A stretch of 33,599 nucleotides of DNA, taken from positions 1-33,599 of the forward strand of contig JAFWIK010000006.1 in NCBI GenBank assembly GCA_017514905.1, written 5' to 3'. The stretch comes from Candidatus Saccharimonadota bacterium. Lineage in GTDB: Bacteria; Patescibacteriota; Saccharimonadia; Saccharimonadales; Saccharimonadaceae. Positions 6,694 through 23,072 of the stretch are shown here, one piece after another. Position numbers and translations under genes: made by a program. The notes below the pieces were generated by a model that did not search any database, had not been told where the DNA came from, and saw nothing but the letters and a program-made list of their open reading frames with translations. Numbering within the stretch: position 1 is the first letter of the stretch; every line of letters starts with the position of its first letter.

Positions 6694-9051
6694 TTACAAC
6701 TCGCCCCAGTTTTTACCAACCGTAATATCAAGGGCGAGTTTTATTTTGAGTTCTGGAGCCACCGTCTCCATTTCACTTTGCAAAACTTTCTTAACTTTAT
6801 CGGCCAATTTAGCATCACATTCTACAATTAACGAATCGTGTACCTGCATCACTAATTCTGCCCCAGCAGGTAAACTGGCGTCCACTCGAATCATCGCTCG
6901 CTTCATCAAATCCGCTTCTGTTCCTTGAATCGGCATATTCTGAGCTGCCCGTTCCGCCGCCTGACGAATAATAAAATTAGAAGACTTAACGTCCGGCGTC
7001 GGCCTACGTCGACCATAATAGGTTTCAACATAGCCCTTCTCTCGTGCCTGTGTCAAAATCGTTTCTAGATACTCTTTAATCGGCGCTCTTAATCTAAAAT
7101 AGTTATCAATGAACTCTTTAGCTTGGCCGATCGGCATTTTTGCTGCATCCGCTAACCCTTTTACACTCATCCCATATAATATGCCAAAATTAATCACTTT
7201 CGCCGCTCGTCTTTGTGCTTTCGTTACTTTATCAATTGGTACGTTAAACGCTTCAGCCGCCGTCTTTGTATGAATATCTATGCCTTTATTAAAATCATTT
7301 ATTAGCGCTTCATCACCTGCTAACACTGCTGCTAATCTTAATTCAAATTGTGAATAATCTGCCGAAACTAATACTTTGCTTTCTGGCGCCACAAAACCCG
7401 TTCTTATTCGTTTTCCCGCCTCCGTTCTCACCGGAATATTTTGCAAATTCGGATCCTTAGACGATAATCGCCCCGTCGCTGTCACATTTTGCGTAAACGT
7501 CGTATGAATTCTATCCTCATCGTCTGCCAATTCTGGCATTGGAATAATATATGTAGACAATAATTTGGCCGCCTCTCGATATTCTATCAATTTTGGTACA
7601 ATTGGATGCAATTCTTTCAATTTAGCCAGTTCTTTCGCCCCCGTAGAATATCCCCTCGTAGTTTTCTTTATACCTTTCACCGGTAATTCAAGTTCCACAA
7701 ACAATACTTCTGACAACTGCACCGGCGAATTTACATTGAACTCTTTCCCTGCCAAATCCCAAATTTCACGCTCCAGTCTTTCTACTTCTTTCGCATATTC
7801 TACTTTCAATTTTTCAAAATACTCACGGTCAATCAACATCCCCTTCTTTTCCATTTTGTACAAAATCGGAATCAACGGCAAATCAAACTCTTTATACACT
7901 TTATATAATTTTGGTAGTTTTTCCATTTCCTGCCGTTGTACTTTATAGGCAGTTTTTAGATCCATTGGATCATAATGATCCATTTGCTTTCGTTCTAATG
8001 GATTTAGTAAAAATTCCGCCTGTCCCAAATCCCAAAACTCTTTTCCATTTAAAATCTCTTCTGCTTGTTTCTTGTCATCGTGCATCAGTTGTTTAACGTT
8101 CCAATCAAGAATAGTATCTTTACTAATTTCAATATTATATTTTTTTATTTCTTCCTTACCTTTATTATCATTTTTTTCTAAATTGAACTTTCGTATCAAA
8201 GAATAGAATTCTAATTTTTCTAAACCGAATCGAACTCTCTCTGGAGCAAATTCAAATTCCGGCACCTGAGTTAAAGATACTGGAGCATCAAACATTATTT
8301 TTGCTAATTTTTGAGACATATATGCCGATTTTTTACCCTCTATCAATTTCTTCTGTACTGATCCCTTTATTTCATCAATGTGTTCATATATTCCGTCTAA
8401 CGAATCATATTCATTTAATAATTTCGCCGCCGTTTTCTCTCCCACTCCTGGAACTCCCGGAATATTATCTGATGCATCTCCCTTCAACGCTTTTAAGTCA
8501 AGAAATTGTGATTTTTTGATCCCGTACTTTTCTTCTATTTCTTTTACATCAATTTGTTGAATGTTAGAAAAACCTTTCATAATTCGCCACATATGTGTAT
8601 TCTCATCCACAATTTGTAACATATCTAAGTCAGATGAGATGATATACGTTTCCCATTCACACTCACCATTCTTATTCATCTCTTCATCCGCCTGTCGACT
8701 CAAAGTCCCAATAATATCATCTGCCTCATATTTCGACACTTCTATAAATGTCCATCCTAAGTCGTTAATTAATTTCTCAAGCAAAGGAATCTGTGCATAA
8801 AAATCTTCTCCTGGTTTTACTCGCCCTGCCTTATAATCAGCAAAAATTTCTCTTCTTCGCGCCGCCGAGTCCCGTGAATCCCACGCTACTACCACTTTAG
8901 TCGGGTTCAAACGCTCTACAATCTCCATTGCAATTGCCGCAAATCCATACACACCACCCGTTGGTGTCCCATCGGACAAAGATAAAGCACCCATCGCATA
9001 ATAGCCTCGATAAAACACCGATTTTCCATCAATGATTACTAATCTTTTCAT
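6694..9051 (-). CDS. polA: DNA polymerase I, with reduced 3'-5' exonuclease region
   Basis: Pol I fills gaps in repair and removes RNA primers from Okazaki fragments. Residues 1-290 are the 5'-3' exonuclease: LVIIDGKSVFYRGYYAM, KYEADDIIGTL, ISSDLDMLQ, LKGDASDNIPGVPGVGEKTA. Residues about 300-365 are only a remnant of the proofreading domain: the DxE active-site block is not found, though FWDLGQAEFLLNP resembles its end. Polymerase motifs follow: TATGRLSSKDPNLQNIP, motif A DYSQFELRLAA, motif B RRAAKVINFGILYGMS (with the Phe position that favours exclusion of dideoxynucleotides) and motif C VMQVHDSLIVE. The length of 785 residues is less than the 928 of E. coli. It is last in an operon with the kinase and membrane protein genes. 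Confidence 0.96.
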   Translation of the reverse strand: MKRLVIIDGKSVFYRGYYAMGALSLSDGTPTGGVYGFAAIAMEIVERLNPTKVVVAWDSRDSAARRREIFADYKAGRVKPGEDFYAQIPLLEKLINDLGWTFIEVSKYEADDIIGTLSRQADEEMNKNGECEWETYIISSDLDMLQIVDENTHMWRIMKGFSNIQQIDVKEIEEKYGIKKSQFLDLKALKGDASDNIPGVPGVGEKTAAKLLNEYDSLDGIYEHIDEIKGSVQKKLIEGKKSAYMSQKLAKIMFDAPVSLTQVPEFEFAPERVRFGLEKLEFYSLIRKFNLEKNDNKGKEEIKKYNIEISKDTILDWNVKQLMHDDKKQAEEILNGKEFWDLGQAEFLLNPLERKQMDHYDPMDLKTAYKVQRQEMEKLPKLYKVYKEFDLPLIPILYKMEKKGMLIDREYFEKLKVEYAKEVERLEREIWDLAGKEFNVNSPVQLSEVLFVELELPVKGIKKTTRGYSTGAKELAKLKELHPIVPKLIEYREAAKLLSTYIIPMPELADDEDRIHTTFTQNVTATGRLSSKDPNLQNIPVRTEAGKRIRTGFVAPESKVLVSADYSQFELRLAAVLAGDEALINDFNKGIDIHTKTAAEAFNVPIDKVTKAQRRAAKVINFGILYGMSVKGLADAAKMPIGQAKEFIDNYFRLRAPIKEYLETILTQAREKGYVETYYGRRRPTPDVKSSNFIIRQAAERAAQNMPIQGTEADLMKRAMIRVDASLPAGAELVMQVHDSLIVECDAKLADKVKKVLQSEMETVAPELKIKLALDITVGKNWGEL
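6698..6747 (+). terminator. Intrinsic terminator of the NrdD-like gene, lying inside polA
   Basis: A perfect 9-bp stem AACTCGCCC / GGGCGAGTT surrounds a 25-base loop and is followed by a T-rich tail (TTTTATTTT). It lies in the last codons of polA on the opposite strand. Confidence 0.6.
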
Positions 9052-14147: not shown

Positions 14148-14168
14148 AGACTTTACAAAGTAAAGTCT
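14148..14168. repeat. Perfect 9-bp hairpin at the stop codon of the surface-protein gene
   Basis: AGACTTTAC, the loop AAA and the complement GTAAAGTCT. The second arm includes two bases of the TAG stop codon (14167-14169). It is followed on the minus strand by the 13-bp hairpin, so the mRNA 3' end is strongly structured. Confidence 0.75.
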
Positions 14169-16671
14169 ACTGAGCTATGCATCTCAATGAGTAGCCGAGG
14201 TTGAGATCGTAATAGTCCGCGGGATTGATGAAGCTAGCACTCGCGCGGAGGCGGTACATGCGGGTCCTATCGTACCACGTAGAGGACCACCAGTTGCCGT
14301 AGCCGCCCTGATTGTACGCCGAGCCACTGGTGAAGTTGCCCGAGAGAGGCATAGAGAGATTGTATTGGAGGCTATTAGTGTCTGTGGCTGTTTCGGTGGT
14401 GTTGTAGTAATTATAGAGGTTTTGGAATTCACCAGTGGGTGGGTTAGCAGTGAGGTTTATAGTTTTACCACCACCGGGCATACGCCAACCAGATGGGCAA
14501 AGGTCTTCAGTAGCGTTACCGGAGGGGCTACCAGGAGAAGTGCCGTTACCGTAGCAGTAGGAGCCTGCACTGGCTGCACAGTAGTTGTAGTAGACGCCTA
14601 TTTTACCGCTACCTGCACCATAGCTGGTGGTAACGGTGTCTTTAGTCCAACCAGTACCACTTGATACAGTCATGGGGATACTATAGTAGTTTTGGGAGCT
14701 AGAAGTCCAGGCTACGTTGTTGATTTTAGCGGTAGGATATTGATCGCTGGTGGTGCCGCCACCGTTCTTGAAATAGTTAAGGGTGGTAGCAGAGGCGTGG
14801 GTGTTAGAGGCGGTGATGCTGTTTAGGGTGGTGGAGTTTGCAGGGTCTAGGCGAAGGTTGTCTAGCATCCAGTATTTGTTGTCTGCTAGTTTACTAATTT
14901 TGTATTCTTCTCCATCTCGGATATCGCATACCGTAGCAGTACTGCCAACGTTCGGTAATAGTGATGCGATAGTAGATGAAGTAAGATTTTGCATTATAGT
15001 AGACCCAGCACAGAATTGTTTACTGGTGACACCAATAGTAGCAGCCCCAGCACCTACAGTAAACTCCTTGCCGTTTAGGGTACCAGCACCAGAAGTCTTG
15101 GTGATGGTGTTGGTATTGTAGCCAGAAGCGTGAGTGGGTTTAATGGTATAGGTGTCACCCTGAAGAAGGGTAGCAGTCTGGCCACTAGCGGTAATGGTCT
15201 TTACAGTAGTGCCATTACTATCTATGATGTCTATACTGGAAGTATTGCTATCCATGGTGAAGGTAATAGTTTGCTCCTGTTGCCAGACGGCATAGAGGGT
15301 TTTGGTTTCGCCTTCGTTTCCTGGGATATTGGCCATTACATCAGATTCGTCTGTATATTCTACTTGGCTAGGCAGACCACTGCCTGGAGTAGTCTGGGTG
15401 GTGGACCAACCGTGGAAGATGGCGCCTTCGTCAGTAGGAGTGGCGTATTCACCGGAAGCGACAGAACGCGTGATGGCAGGGTTTGCAGTAATAACGGCGT
15501 AGTAGCCATACGTACCAGATGACGCTATGTACGTATCATTATAGAACCCAAAAGTGACAGTATCGCCAGAAATATCACATTCTTTAGTAGTTTGTGTAGT
15601 GCCACCCAACTTTGGTCCTGCCCCATCACAAGTAATTCCTGAAGAATAGTTGTTTTTAGCAGAATTATTTGGATAATTACCAGCCCAGATGACCGCCCAG
15701 TCATAGGAGGTACTTTCTGTAGCATAAGTAATTTTGACATGGAGAGATGATGCGCCATCTATAGTAATTACGTCAGTAAGATCTTTTCCAGTGCTGTAGT
15801 CATCATACTTACCATTTACTATGCCGTCATCGCTGATATTTGGTGTATGGGAATATTTGGTTGTGGATATGTGAGTAGTGGTAGAATTATAATTAACTCG
15901 GTTCAGTGTCTCCCCATCATAAGTCAAGCCATTACCCTCATATTCTACACAGAGCTTGGTAGGGTCACAGTCTAGGACATGAGAGTTACCTACAGCAGTA
16001 ATGACGAAGGTATTGTTTTCATAAGTCTGGAAGCCTAAGTCACTGGTGACTCTAGCGCCAATAGACAAAGTATAGTTATTGCTAGAACTATCACTTGTGA
16101 TGTCTATAATGTCTGCAGTATCAGTGGGGGAGGGGAGATAGTTAGTGTTAGAGGCTCTTTGTTCAGTACTGGTATTATAGTGCATACTGGGTTTATAGCC
16201 CCATTTGTTATTGTAGCTGGTATTAATATTGAAGGTATTTTGATCTATGGCTGAGGAGATGGAAGTGATAGATTTAGTGCTATCTGTGGTGCCAGTAAGG
16301 CTAGTATTACCACCACCAGTAATGGCTAAGGTATAGCCAGAAGCAGGAGCATTGGATACACTAATGTTGATATTACCACTATCTGCAAAGGTACCAGTAC
16401 TTGATGGTGCTACAGTAATAGATGGGTTGCCGGAGATGGAGACGGTGATGCTGTCTGCAGCGTGGGTGTCTAGATTACTAAAGAAGAATGGGGATGCTAG
16501 GAGGAATAATGACGCAACAAACATCAACGGGTGGCGCCACTTGGGGGACCCCATTCGAGCTTGCTCGCCCCTTGGGACGCGAATTGCCAAAGGCAAACGA
16601 GAATAGGGGAAAAGTGGCGACAGGACCCGTTGAGAAGATGTGATTTTGTTTAATGTCTGAGACATCTTCAT
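14167..16671 (-). CDS. Large secreted surface protein with FISUMP C-terminal domain
   Basis: The start at 16671 (MKMSQ) is chosen because GGAGG lies 5 bases upstream; the longer frame from 16683 lacks a close Shine-Dalgarno sequence. Residues 1-12 form a short n-region, about 13-50 are the in-frame palindromic insertion, and 50-68 form the hydrophobic signal segment (MFVASLFLLASPFFF), cleaved near THAADS. Ser/Thr/Asn-rich beta domains follow, including SITVSISGNPSITVAPSS. Further on are an InlB-type B repeat (IFHGWSTTQTTPGSG with TLYAVWQQ) and a PEGA-like piece (SSIDIIDSNGTTVKTI). The C-terminal FISUMP domain has YKISKLADNKYWMLDNLRL, LCPSGWRMPGGG, GNWWSSTW and GYSLRCIAQ. It is probably exported and cell-surface exposed, possibly for host-cell contact. 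About 834 residues. Confidence 0.9.
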   Translation of the reverse strand: MKMSQTLNKITSSQRVLSPLFPYSRLPLAIRVPRGEQARMGSPKWRHPLMFVASLFLLASPFFFSNLDTHAADSITVSISGNPSITVAPSSTGTFADSGNINISVSNAPASGYTLAITGGGNTSLTGTTDSTKSITSISSAIDQNTFNINTSYNNKWGYKPSMHYNTSTEQRASNTNYLPSPTDTADIIDITSDSSSNNYTLSIGARVTSDLGFQTYENNTFVITAVGNSHVLDCDPTKLCVEYEGNGLTYDGETLNRVNYNSTTTHISTTKYSHTPNISDDGIVNGKYDDYSTGKDLTDVITIDGASSLHVKITYATESTSYDWAVIWAGNYPNNSAKNNYSSGITCDGAGPKLGGTTQTTKECDISGDTVTFGFYNDTYIASSGTYGYYAVITANPAITRSVASGEYATPTDEGAIFHGWSTTQTTPGSGLPSQVEYTDESDVMANIPGNEGETKTLYAVWQQEQTITFTMDSNTSSIDIIDSNGTTVKTITASGQTATLLQGDTYTIKPTHASGYNTNTITKTSGAGTLNGKEFTVGAGAATIGVTSKQFCAGSTIMQNLTSSTIASLLPNVGSTATVCDIRDGEEYKISKLADNKYWMLDNLRLDPANSTTLNSITASNTHASATTLNYFKNGGGTTSDQYPTAKINNVAWTSSSQNYYSIPMTVSSGTGWTKDTVTTSYGAGSGKIGVYYNYCAASAGSYCYGNGTSPGSPSGNATEDLCPSGWRMPGGGKTINLTANPPTGEFQNLYNYYNTTETATDTNSLQYNLSMPLSGNFTSGSAYNQGGYGNWWSSTWYDRTRMYRLRASASFINPADYYDLNLGYSLRCIAQ
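16524..16633. repeat. In-frame palindromic element inside the surface-protein gene
   Basis: The two ends are inverted copies: TCAACGGGT at 16524-16532 and its complement at 16625-16633. Further in, CGCCACTT and then CCCC plus ATTC blocks recur in the same order from both ends. Inside are small hairpins (GAGCTTGCTC; TTGCCAAAGGCAA). The segment encodes residues 13-50, a Pro/Arg-rich stretch between the n-region and the hydrophobic core of the signal peptide. It is GC-richer than its surroundings. Confidence 0.75.
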
Positions 16672-16712
16672 GTAGACCTCCATTTGGTTATTAATCCTCC
16701 CATGGCGGCCAT
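16668..16712 (-). CDS. Putative 14-residue leader peptide, coupled to the surface-protein gene
   Basis: AGGAG (16717-16721) lies 4 bases before an ATG at 16710-16712. The frame reads MAAMGGLITKWRST and stops at TGA, which overlaps the ATG of the surface protein in ATGA. The overlap suggests translational coupling. The Shine-Dalgarno of the main gene (GGAGG, 16677-16681) lies inside the small frame, so ribosomes reading it would affect access to the main start. No codon bias of an attenuator type is obvious. Confidence 0.4.
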   Translation of the reverse strand: MAAMGGLITKWRST

Positions 16713-16720
16713 ATATCTCC

Positions 16721-16883
16721 TATTAAAAATGGCACCGCTCAGGGTGCGATCCACAATTGTCGGACAGCATAAAGCTTTAAAACAACCAAGGCCCTGAACG
16801 ATGCCATTTAAGCTGTCTTAAACATGCTTTATGCCGAATTACAATAAAGTGCTGTCCAAATAAGGACAATCGTAGATCGCTAT
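16721..16883 (-). ncRNA. Structured RNA: 5' leader or small RNA upstream of the surface-protein gene
   Basis: A perfect TATAAT (16890-16895) should start an RNA near 16883. The 5' GATCTACGATTGTC pairs over 14 bp with GACAATTGTGGATC (two G-U). Inside, GGACAG pairs with CTGTCC and GCATAAAGC pairs perfectly with GCTTTATGC; within that is a TTTAAG / CTTAAA hairpin. Alternatives compete: ATAAAG can pair with nearby CTTTAT, and a second GACAGC can pair with the same GCTGTC. After the closing stem comes GCACC-loop-GGTGC then ATTTTTAAT, like a weak terminator, followed by AGGAG and the leader ORF. It does not match tmRNA, RNase P or SRP RNA consensus that I know. It could be a riboswitch-like leader or an independent small RNA. 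Confidence 0.6.
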
Positions 16884-16889
16884 ACCCCT

Positions 16890-16895
16890 ATTATA
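16890..16895 (-). promoter_or_regulatory. -10 box for the structured leader and surface-protein gene
   Basis: TATAAT on the minus strand followed by AGGGGTATAGCG; the -35 region is poor. It is about 180 bases upstream of the leader ORF start and is the best promoter for this transcript. Confidence 0.55.
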
Positions 16896-17041: not shown

Positions 17042-17068
17042 TTAGCACTCTAGCACAACGAGTGCTAA
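17042..17068 (+). promoter_or_regulatory. CIRCE operator (HrcA-binding inverted repeat)
   Basis: The exact consensus TTAGCACTC (17042-17050), nine bases, then GAGTGCTAA (17060-17068). In other bacteria HrcA binds this element to repress dnaK and groE operons at normal temperature. hrcA is not in the window. Confidence 0.97.
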
Positions 17069-21160: not shown

Positions 21161-21597
21161 TTATCACTACATTAAAAGAATACACCCCAGCTACCGCTCA
21201 ACGCGTTCGTGAATTACTCATTCAACTATCGCGCAGCGGTAAAGATAAAGGCGAAATCCCTGAAGAATGGTTCAAAGACATTATCGCTTCCCCTTGGCAT
21301 GACATGCTCATTGCCGAAGAAGATGGCGAAATATTAGGTATCGCTACCCTTTCCGTCACTATGGGCCCTGGTATCCGCAAAAACGCCTATCTCGAAGATT
21401 TTGTTACTGATAGCAACGTCCGTGGTAAAGGCGTAGGCGGTAAATTATGGGACGCTATGTTAGAGTGGGCCAAAGAAAAAGGCTGCAAAAATCTTGAATT
21501 TACTTGTGGCAACGGTCGCGAGGCCTCGCAGGAATTTTACAAGCACAAAGGTGCTGAAGTTTACGACACTAATTTCTTCCGCAAGCCAATCGAATAA
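21157..21597 (+). CDS. GNAT-family N-acetyltransferase
   Basis: The 146-residue protein has the GNAT fold: MLIAEEDGEILGIATLSVT, then the acetyl-CoA binding block LEDFVTDSNVRGKGVGGKLWDAML (RGKGVGGKL is the pyrophosphate-binding loop), and LEFTCGNGREASQEFYKHKGAE near the end. The substrate is not shown. Its ATGA overlap with glmM and shared transcript with pta suggest a role in acetylating an amino sugar such as a glucosamine phosphate, or an amino group on the glycan; this is inference. The 3' end overlaps the O-antigen-ligase-like gene by 37 bases on the opposite strand. Confidence 0.88.
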   Translation: MIITTLKEYTPATAQRVRELLIQLSRSGKDKGEIPEEWFKDIIASPWHDMLIAEEDGEILGIATLSVTMGPGIRKNAYLEDFVTDSNVRGKGVGGKLWDAMLEWAKEKGCKNLEFTCGNGREASQEFYKHKGAEVYDTNFFRKPIE

Positions 21598-23072
21598 ATT
21601 AACGCTGGCAACAGATAAATATGCAGGGCATTAGGTAACCCTGAGAAGAACAAGAGCGAAATACCATACGCTATTAATAAGCATATTAGTACTACTTTCA
21701 AAGGACTTTTCCAAAATACTTTTAGCACCATAACTAAACTAAATACCACTAAAACTACCCCTATGACGCCTATCTCTAACAATAGTGAAGCATATTGGTT
21801 TTGCACGATTTCTTTTGGTGCCGGCGATAAATCATTAATGTATAGTGCCTGTCCTGCTCCCCCCAATCCTACCCCAAACATCGCCGTCGCAAAATCCTGT
21901 GACCATATTTTTACCGCTGCATCTGATAACCTTAACCTCGTGTCGGTTGATTCCGCTACGTAACCACTAAACGTAGCCTCACCCGCTTGATTATCGCTCG
22001 TCGAGCCCTCATTGACTTCTGTTTCCTCCACCGGCACCGCATTGTCGCGTATATCTATTACTCCTAAGGATAAATGGTTAAGTACTTTTGCTACACCCGT
22101 TTTATATGTGTCATTAGTCGAACTTGCTGCCGCCATAATCCCCTGCGCATTCAAAGTAAAGAGGAACGCCAGTATTATCACTGGCCACACTAACAGCGCC
22201 TTCCACTTGCGTGATTGGGTTATTCTCCAAATTATCATCACCACCATCGCTATCAAGAATGCATAAATTGCTCCTCTCGAAAACGTCAGAAACAGAGTTA
22301 CTAACAAAACAAAAAATAATAATACGATAATAGGCTTGCGAAAATTGCAATCGGAAAGGGTGGTATGATGCTTTGGCGAAGCGGCATTTCGGAGCGCGGC
22401 AGCACGAGAGTTAGCGCCGGCCGCCCGTGGCGACGGGCCGGCCGGACGCGGCCGCGAGCAAAGCATCAACCACCCTGCTATAATTGTTGGTGCAAGCAAC
22501 AAATTCCCCATAAACTGTGGCTCTATCGCAAATCCATCCGGATGCGGGAATCCGAACATTCCACTTACACATCCTTCACACATCAAACTAGCTTCTCTTG
22601 GCACCCCTACTAAATCTAAAATACACTGAACCCAACACCAAACGCATATTACTAGGGAAGATCCGAAAAACACCTTCCAAAAATTATCTCTAAAACCCTT
22701 CTTATCAAACGCCTTTCTCAGTTCGAAAAATCCATAAATCGCAAAATACAGTAACCACACTATTCCTACCGTCAATAATCCTCGTATTGAATTCAGTGAC
22801 CACAGCACCGAAATCGTTAGCCAAAGTGGCAATAATAGCCACATCCATCTCTGTAAAATCCCTTTCCAGAAGCCTCGTTTCTGCCAACTCATTATTAGAA
22901 CTAACACATCAAATAATACCAACCACACAAGTGGTAACGATATTTCAAAATTCATCGACTCACTACTACCAAAATGCATCAATGGCTGATATGAAAAAAA
23001 CAACACCCCAGGCAATATATAAATCATCCCTCTAAACACTTGCTCTAATCTATTTTTTGTCGTTTTTTGCAT
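21561..23072 (-). CDS. O-antigen ligase / polymerase-like membrane protein with in-frame palindromic insertion
   Basis: The protein is polytopic, with about 10-12 hydrophobic helices (for example YILPGVLFFSYQPLMHF, WLVLFDVLVLIMSW, LLWLLLPLWLTISVLW). LFLTFSRGAIYAFLIAMVV is typical of the Wzy_C/O-antigen ligase family, and a large loop follows between helices in the C-terminal half. Such enzymes transfer or polymerise lipid-linked glycans outside the membrane. Around residues 199-239 a GC-rich Arg/Pro/Ala stretch (SRPRPAGPSPRAAG and on) interrupts a loop between helices and is encoded by the palindromic element. The gene start overlaps the GT4 gene by 23 bases. It is last in the glmS operon. 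Confidence 0.8.
   Translation of the reverse strand: MQKTTKNRLEQVFRGMIYILPGVLFFSYQPLMHFGSSESMNFEISLPLVWLVLFDVLVLIMSWQKRGFWKGILQRWMWLLLPLWLTISVLWSLNSIRGLLTVGIVWLLYFAIYGFFELRKAFDKKGFRDNFWKVFFGSSLVICVWCWVQCILDLVGVPREASLMCEGCVSGMFGFPHPDGFAIEPQFMGNLLLAPTIIAGWLMLCSRPRPAGPSPRAAGANSRAAALRNAASPKHHTTLSDCNFRKPIIVLLFFVLLVTLFLTFSRGAIYAFLIAMVVMIIWRITQSRKWKALLVWPVIILAFLFTLNAQGIMAAASSTNDTYKTGVAKVLNHLSLGVIDIRDNAVPVEETEVNEGSTSDNQAGEATFSGYVAESTDTRLRLSDAAVKIWSQDFATAMFGVGLGGAGQALYINDLSPAPKEIVQNQYASLLLEIGVIGVVLVVFSLVMVLKVFWKSPLKVVLICLLIAYGISLLFFSGLPNALHIYLLPALIYSIGLRKKLVS
22357..22476. repeat. In-frame palindromic element inside the O-antigen-ligase-like gene
   Basis: The ends AGGGTGG and CCACCCT are inverted; next to them ATGATGCTTTG and CAAAGCATCA pair again, leaving a 120-base unit (40 codons, multiple of three). 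The centre holds a strong hairpin, CCGGCCGCCCGT against ACGGGCCGGCCGG, with one bulge. GC content is far above the flanking DNA, and the encoded residues are Arg/Pro/Ala-rich and hydrophilic in an otherwise hydrophobic protein. No tandem target duplication is obvious. Confidence 0.78.

Follow-up and report, generated by a model that had tools for sequence, protein, structure and literature searches.

Palindromes within protein-coding sequence have been on record in Rickettsia since 2000, and each family of these Rickettsia palindromic elements (RPEs) is said to encode a conserved peptide. To our knowledge, the mechanism by which they move is unknown, they have no known transposase, and neither local inverted arms nor a three-way junction nor an orientation along the replication strand has been described for them. 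Members of the IS200/IS605 group have foldable ends and an insertion that is tied to the replication strand. RPEs are short palindromes dispersed in a reduced genome, and many of them lie in frame in housekeeping genes (PMC10969869; PMC6649704). Palindromes in coding genes are also found in Magnusiomyces, as the untranslated byps, and in nematomorphs, where the repeats belong to conserved coding sequence and do not form a dispersed family of elements built on a common core (PMC6649704). REPs are extragenic and 20–40 bp long (PMC3733652). For Saccharibacteria or other CPR bacteria no report of palindromic elements was found in the open literature, subscription papers being mostly outside the scope of this search. 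Here we describe a dispersed multi-copy family of palindromic elements with a conserved three-way-junction fold in the Nanosyncoccaceae, beginning with two elements on a 33,599-nt stretch of Candidatus Saccharimonadota DNA (contig JAFWIK010000006.1, hereafter the window). The genome to which the window belongs (G000) is a Candidatus Nanosyncoccus-like Saccharibacteria assembly from ruminant gut, 700 kb in 26 contigs and 87% complete.

Two palindromic elements in one window

The features of the first element and its host gene are as follows.

16516–16532, plus strand: left arm of the type-A element, host locus-specific bases and the terminal CGGGT; pairs with 16625–16650 in both DNA and RNA folds
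16527–16552, plus strand: 5' half of the type-A element, ACGGGTGGCGCCACTTGGGGGACCCC; homologues on G000 contigs C3 and C7 and in relatives G004, G005, G021, G028 and G029
16563–16599, plus strand: nested module C, GCTCGCCCCTTGGGACGCGAATTGCCAAAGGCAAACG; copies 88–97% identical on G000 contigs C11 and C12 and in G003, G005, G007, G012 and G028
16602–16630, plus strand: 3' half of the type-A element, AATAGGGGAAAAGTGGCGACAGGACCCGT
16625–16650, plus strand: right arm of the type-A element, the terminal ACCCG and host locus-specific bases
14167–16683, minus strand: host gene, encoding a surface protein (838 aa) from a large family of paralogues

The original prediction held that a 110-base segment at 16524–16633 has inverted ends and is inserted in frame in a signal peptide. 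The inverted ends are real: the arms TCAACGGGT (16524–16532) and ACCCGTTGA (16625–16633) are complementary at 9/9 positions, an 11-nt repeat TGGCGCCACTT / AAGTGGCGACA matches at 91%, and CCCCATTC stands opposite GAAT-A-GGGG, leaving a single bulged base in the pairing. The RNA fold of the segment (z −3.75) is stronger than all 200 dinucleotide shuffles, and the DNA fold with flanks gives z −4.57 against such shuffles. Its limits have to be redrawn, since the pairing runs on into host DNA (ACAAACATC...GATGTgattTTGT, about 16516–16650) and the segment is a composite, in which a type-A element (GGGTGRCGCC...GGCRRCAGGACCC) carries the 37-nt module C in its loop. Copies of module C recur outside this segment, and several of them occupy the loop at the hairpin tip of a type-B element.

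The predicted position also holds, as the segment is in frame in the minus-strand ORF 14167–16683 and encodes residues about 17–54 of 838, between the n-region of the signal peptide and its hydrophobic core. A strict orthologue of this gene was not found, and the evidence at this site therefore comes from paralogues; all 19 paralogous surface proteins compared, from G000 and its relatives, lack the Pro/Arg stretch and have an ordinary signal peptide. The suggestion that such a site before the signal core is favoured because it spares folding survives only in a wider form, the tolerance being general to variable surface loops and not specific to signal peptides.

The second palindrome of the window, which we call type B, lies in frame in another gene.

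22357–22375, plus strand: left arm, AGGGTGGTATGATGCTTTG; pairs with 22459–22476 with one bulge
22384–22452, plus strand: core, a three-way junction with the tip hairpin CCCGTGGCGACGGG at 22424–22437; recurs in G000
22459–22476, plus strand: right arm, CAAAGCATCAACCACCCT
21561–23072, minus strand: host gene, Wzy_C/O-antigen-ligase-like (Pfam PF04932, E 5e-14)

The whole palindrome (22357–22476) contributes a Pro/Arg/Ala-rich stretch to the Wzy_C-like protein. DNA searches of G000 found 6 places with the first segment and 22 with the second, namely the window copy and 21 others that are up to 97% identical. The type-B tip motif CCCGTRRMGACGGG has 33 copies in G000 and at most 39 in any one genome; 150 of the 170 genus genomes contain it, against two hits over all 170 for a reversed-pattern control. 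Across the class it is present in 118/393 genomes and 11/152 genera; beyond its own genus it is found in 25 genomes of eight genera in the same family, and other families give only single hits in two genomes. Two of three inspected out-of-genus loci (L267 and L268) share the architecture including the long local arms, and the third (L266) is a chance match to the tip motif. The related contigs are from Candidatus Saccharibacteria of sheep, goat, yak, buffalo and deer gut, and one is from Candidatus Nanosyncoccus alces. Parts of the first segment and a related element thus recur across the genome and the genus, and such copies elsewhere were what the original prediction called for as support.

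Insertion sites and reading frame

The majority of G000 copies are in frame, free of stop codons and within essential or housekeeping genes. By our own reading of the translations, these host genes presumably encode tRNA synthetases (LeuRS at two sites, ValRS, AlaRS, TyrS, ArgS and PheT), replication and repair proteins (LigA, UvrB, UvrD, PriA and, on contig C11, PolA), and also TrmD, TruB, IscS, Dus and a PepN-like peptidase. Four copies are intergenic, in terminator-like stems (L042, L051–L053). At all eight aligned essential-gene sites the extra residues are missing from relatives, which supplies the clean presence and absence that an inserted segment should leave. In the closest genome (G081) most of the G000 sites are empty, the UvrB and PriA insertions are common to both, and TruB and PolA carry an element that differs from that of G000. 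The TruB loop of G081 (L252) holds a different palindromic element in the same loop as the G000 copy (L050). There are two different polA genes in the one bin, at 6694–9051 of the window and on contig C11 (L007), of which one carries an element and the other has the site without it; the G000 bin is probably a mixture of two related species.

In 20-kb samples 28 of 38 elements lie in genes, 17 in sense and 11 in antisense. Taken together, the 103 distinct elements are read in both orientations and in four main codon phases, the tips being in sense phase 1 (34), sense phase 0 (18), antisense phase 2 (20) and antisense phase 0 (14). Only 38% of the frames through an element are open, and every coding copy examined keeps its frame open. 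Such a use of frames would be expected under selection for an open, translated frame; proteomic data are lacking.

The Rickettsia precedent invoked in the original prediction therefore applies to behaviour. Like RPEs, these elements are dispersed, selfish-looking palindromes of about 100–150 bp that lie in frame in unrelated protein genes, and the orthologous sites of relatives are empty. However, the single conserved peptide attributed to an RPE family is absent, as the Saccharibacteria elements are read in both orientations and four main frames, and the host phylum differs. By analogy they may be regarded as elements of the same kind as RPEs, with no homology shown.

Repeated gain and loss in LeuRS

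The gene for LeuRS has two insertion hot spots. At site 1, the 80 named loci are either empty (about 10 codons) or hold inserts of 19–54 codons, which are of different kinds and have different arms at the same codon position. On a 69-tip LeuRS protein tree, built with the insert left out, presence at this site has changed at least 18 times, and the elements have thus been repeatedly gained and lost. In the Thermus LeuRS structure 1h3n the insert would take the place of a four-residue link between the catalytic and editing domains. An AlphaFold model of LeuRS made with 18 sequences was poor (pLDDT 49) and uninformative. One LeuRS allele (L179:2539–2719) appears to hold a partly deleted element that retains its local arms, a possible excision intermediate.

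A fold specific to one strand

The 59 distinct tip-type elements share a common plan, which consists of an outer stem P0, a hairpin P1, joining strands and a hairpin P2 with the tip. P0 is made of the locus-specific arms and a few bases of the element. One subfamily has a conserved P1 loop, GACRACGGGA, on a covarying stem, with 92% of cells paired, 10 double changes and none of 500 shuffles scoring as high. RNAalifold on a global alignment of the 59 elements recovered only the P2 stem because the subfamilies were misaligned, and P1 was tested separately. A search of the window against Rfam at the gathering threshold returned tRNA only, which gives no support for an intron, ribozyme or other known RNA, and five element loci searched at E values up to 5 gave one chance hit. 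On one side of the outer stem, a bulged base recurs at a constant spacing from the core (L136, L145, L166, L175, L176 and L179), a conserved structural detail in or beside the local arms of many copies.

The element strand has the lower fold energy, compared with its complement, in 53/59 cases (mean difference −7.9 kcal/mol). Read on the element strand, the arm mismatches comprise 38 G.U and 7 A.C; the ratio is 15:2 in sense copies, 20:4 in antisense copies, and 23:6 under a stricter definition that trims the arms back from the element. For the coding strand it is 122:106 with no significant bias, and selection for mRNA structure is rejected. As the G.U excess is found in sense and antisense copies alike and not on the coding strand, the relevant fold is that of the element's own strand. 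Because elements from the same genome, and likewise the many copies in LeuRS, are not wholly independent of one another, the P values given here are guides.

Orientation follows the replication strand

Element orientation is uniform along contigs, for example in 9/9 copies over 160 kb of contig C9 of genome G129. In the 20-kb samples, drawn from five genomes, the element strand coincides with the C-rich one in 33 of 35 cases (p = 4e-8); overall it does so in 79/97, the bias being weaker in gene-rich short loci (22/31 and 23/30). The type-B element of the window conforms, being on the plus strand with a skew of −0.16; type A has a bias of 9/13, which is not significant (p = 0.27). With respect to the genes the sense to antisense ratio is 17:11, so that orientation follows the replication strand and not the gene. 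The leading strand is usually G-rich, and the element strand therefore corresponds to the sequence of the nascent lagging strand, an assignment made from GC skew only.

Short palindromes with a strand-asymmetric fold recall REPs and BIMEs. RAYT (PF01797) or other Y1 proteins, which would be expected of a REP/RAYT system, occur in none of 24 genus genomes, while 7 of the 40 genomes in the set have RAYT. The elements also differ from IS200/IS605, as no Y1 transposase was found for them and they have inverted arms specific to each locus instead of a fixed target tetranucleotide.

Origin of the arms and a model of insertion

Arms of about 15–25 bp that are specific to the locus are present in nearly all copies. 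The median pairing score is 17 for an arm with its own partner and 6.5 for swapped pairs; only the median is usable, as homologous LeuRS flanks inflate the upper tail of the swapped set. One element has two G000 copies, in LeuRS (L054) and in Dus (L056), with unrelated arms of 20–28 bp. Inspection of the flanks, by eye only, showed inverted locus-specific arms and no fixed direct repeat of the kind that the target-site duplication of a MITE would leave. The estimate of how much host sequence an insertion adds depends on where the core is taken to end. In a first version of this net-length test one new arm fits (deviation 0.7 nt, against +24 for none and −23 for both), and with a fixed core almost no new arm fits (+4.8 nt, against −12.6 for one and −30 for both). 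Since the result varies with the core limits, the one conclusion drawn from it is the exclusion of two new arms, on which both versions agree. The native arm could not be cleanly identified from any pair.

We lean, on balance, towards a non-autonomous selfish palindromic element whose folded single strand inserts in the nascent lagging strand and gains one host arm by fold-back synthesis. No insertion has been observed, and the mechanism as a whole is inferred. The mobile form would be a folded single strand, either DNA or RNA copied to DNA, that becomes attached at the 3' end of the nascent lagging strand. The 3' end of the element would then fold back onto its own 5' end and prime synthesis over 10–25 nt of the adjacent host strand, giving the inverted local arm, before synthesis goes back to the chromosome template. 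Insertions in variable loops that preserve the frame would survive and be translated as flexible Arg/Pro/Ala-rich stretches, and the pairing of the arms may be maintained by selection on the fold of the strand or by template-switch correction. No dedicated enzyme for the elements was found, and the machinery is most likely supplied by the replication and repair enzymes of the host. In yeast break repair, fold-back synthesis produces inverted duplications mostly of 5–34 bp (PMC11724301), so no special enzyme is needed for this step. Where the strand comes from (excised DNA or an RNA copy) and how it is joined are inferred only.

Alternatively, the arms could be old host hairpins, the element having entered the loop of a pre-existing local hairpin such as a terminator, another element or a quasi-palindrome. 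Module C and other modules do sit exactly in type-B hairpin tips (L020, L045 and L050), the four intergenic copies are in terminator-like stems, and the fixed-core length test leaves little space for a new arm. We nevertheless consider this origin unlikely, as the empty LeuRS sites (51 and 28) have hairpin scores like those of random places in the gene, which implies that arm complementarity was acquired at or after insertion, and long prior palindromes in conserved coding loops are very improbable.

Another conceivable route is reverse transcription of a structured RNA at a nick, with the cDNA then completed by fold-back. The strand-specific, covarying fold with its G.U excess would suit an RNA, and reverse transcriptases are present in 95/170 genus genomes, so that an RNA intermediate is possible in some lineages. 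However, none was detected in G000 (87% complete) or in G004, both of which carry elements, there is no promoter or transcript evidence, and the reverse transcriptases may belong to diversity-generating retroelements; as an explanation of the spread it seems quite doubtful. That the arms arose later, by compensatory point mutations under selection for the fold, agrees with the G.U excess and covariation in so far as these show that the fold matters, yet each copy would need many substitutions to build locus-specific arms of about 15–25 bp, and this we hold to be very improbable. Ribosomal bypass of an untranslated mRNA hairpin, as with the byps of Magnusiomyces mitochondria, is suggested by hairpins with locus-specific closing stems within essential genes but is scarcely credible, as the frame is open in every coding copy examined even though only 38% of frames through an element are, mRNA-strand pairing is not favoured, and antisense copies retain the fold of the non-mRNA strand; membership among the byps fails on the same open frames, again without proteomics.

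The combination of in-frame inserts, locus-specific stems and strand bias points to an unusual route by which minimal selfish DNA spreads, probably one that has not been described. Whether it amounts to a new mechanistic class can be proposed only tentatively; such a class would comprise a transposase-free foldable single strand of about 75 nt that acts on the nascent lagging strand, makes its own inverted host arm as a locus-specific hairpin lock, nests in the tips of other copies and, throughout a Patescibacteria family, enters the same loops of essential proteins again and again. The 170 searchable genus genomes, with LeuRS hot spots and many sister pairs of empty and filled sites, offer an independent and abundant system, and together with the covarying fold and the strand signature they make the origin of such elements testable by comparative genomics. 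The hosts are ultra-small Patescibacteria, usually considered streamlined, and they bear dozens of inserts in essential enzymes, which affect annotation, protein modelling and phylogenetic alignments.

The surface gene and its surroundings

The surface protein family that hosts the first element is strongly expanded, with members in 58/60 genomes and 19 matches in G000, and it may be linked with the reverse transcriptases of the genus as diversity-generating retroelements. Between the surface gene and dnaK lies an A+T-rich palindromic region (16720–16890), whose minus-strand fold has z −5.3. It has two pairings that exclude each other, one of them ending in the terminator-like CCCTGAGCGGTGCCATTTTT, and may serve the surface gene as an attenuator-like leader. 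A perfect CIRCE operator (TTAGCACTC-N9-GAGTGCTAA, 17042–17068) is located upstream of dnaK and suggests control of this gene by HrcA.
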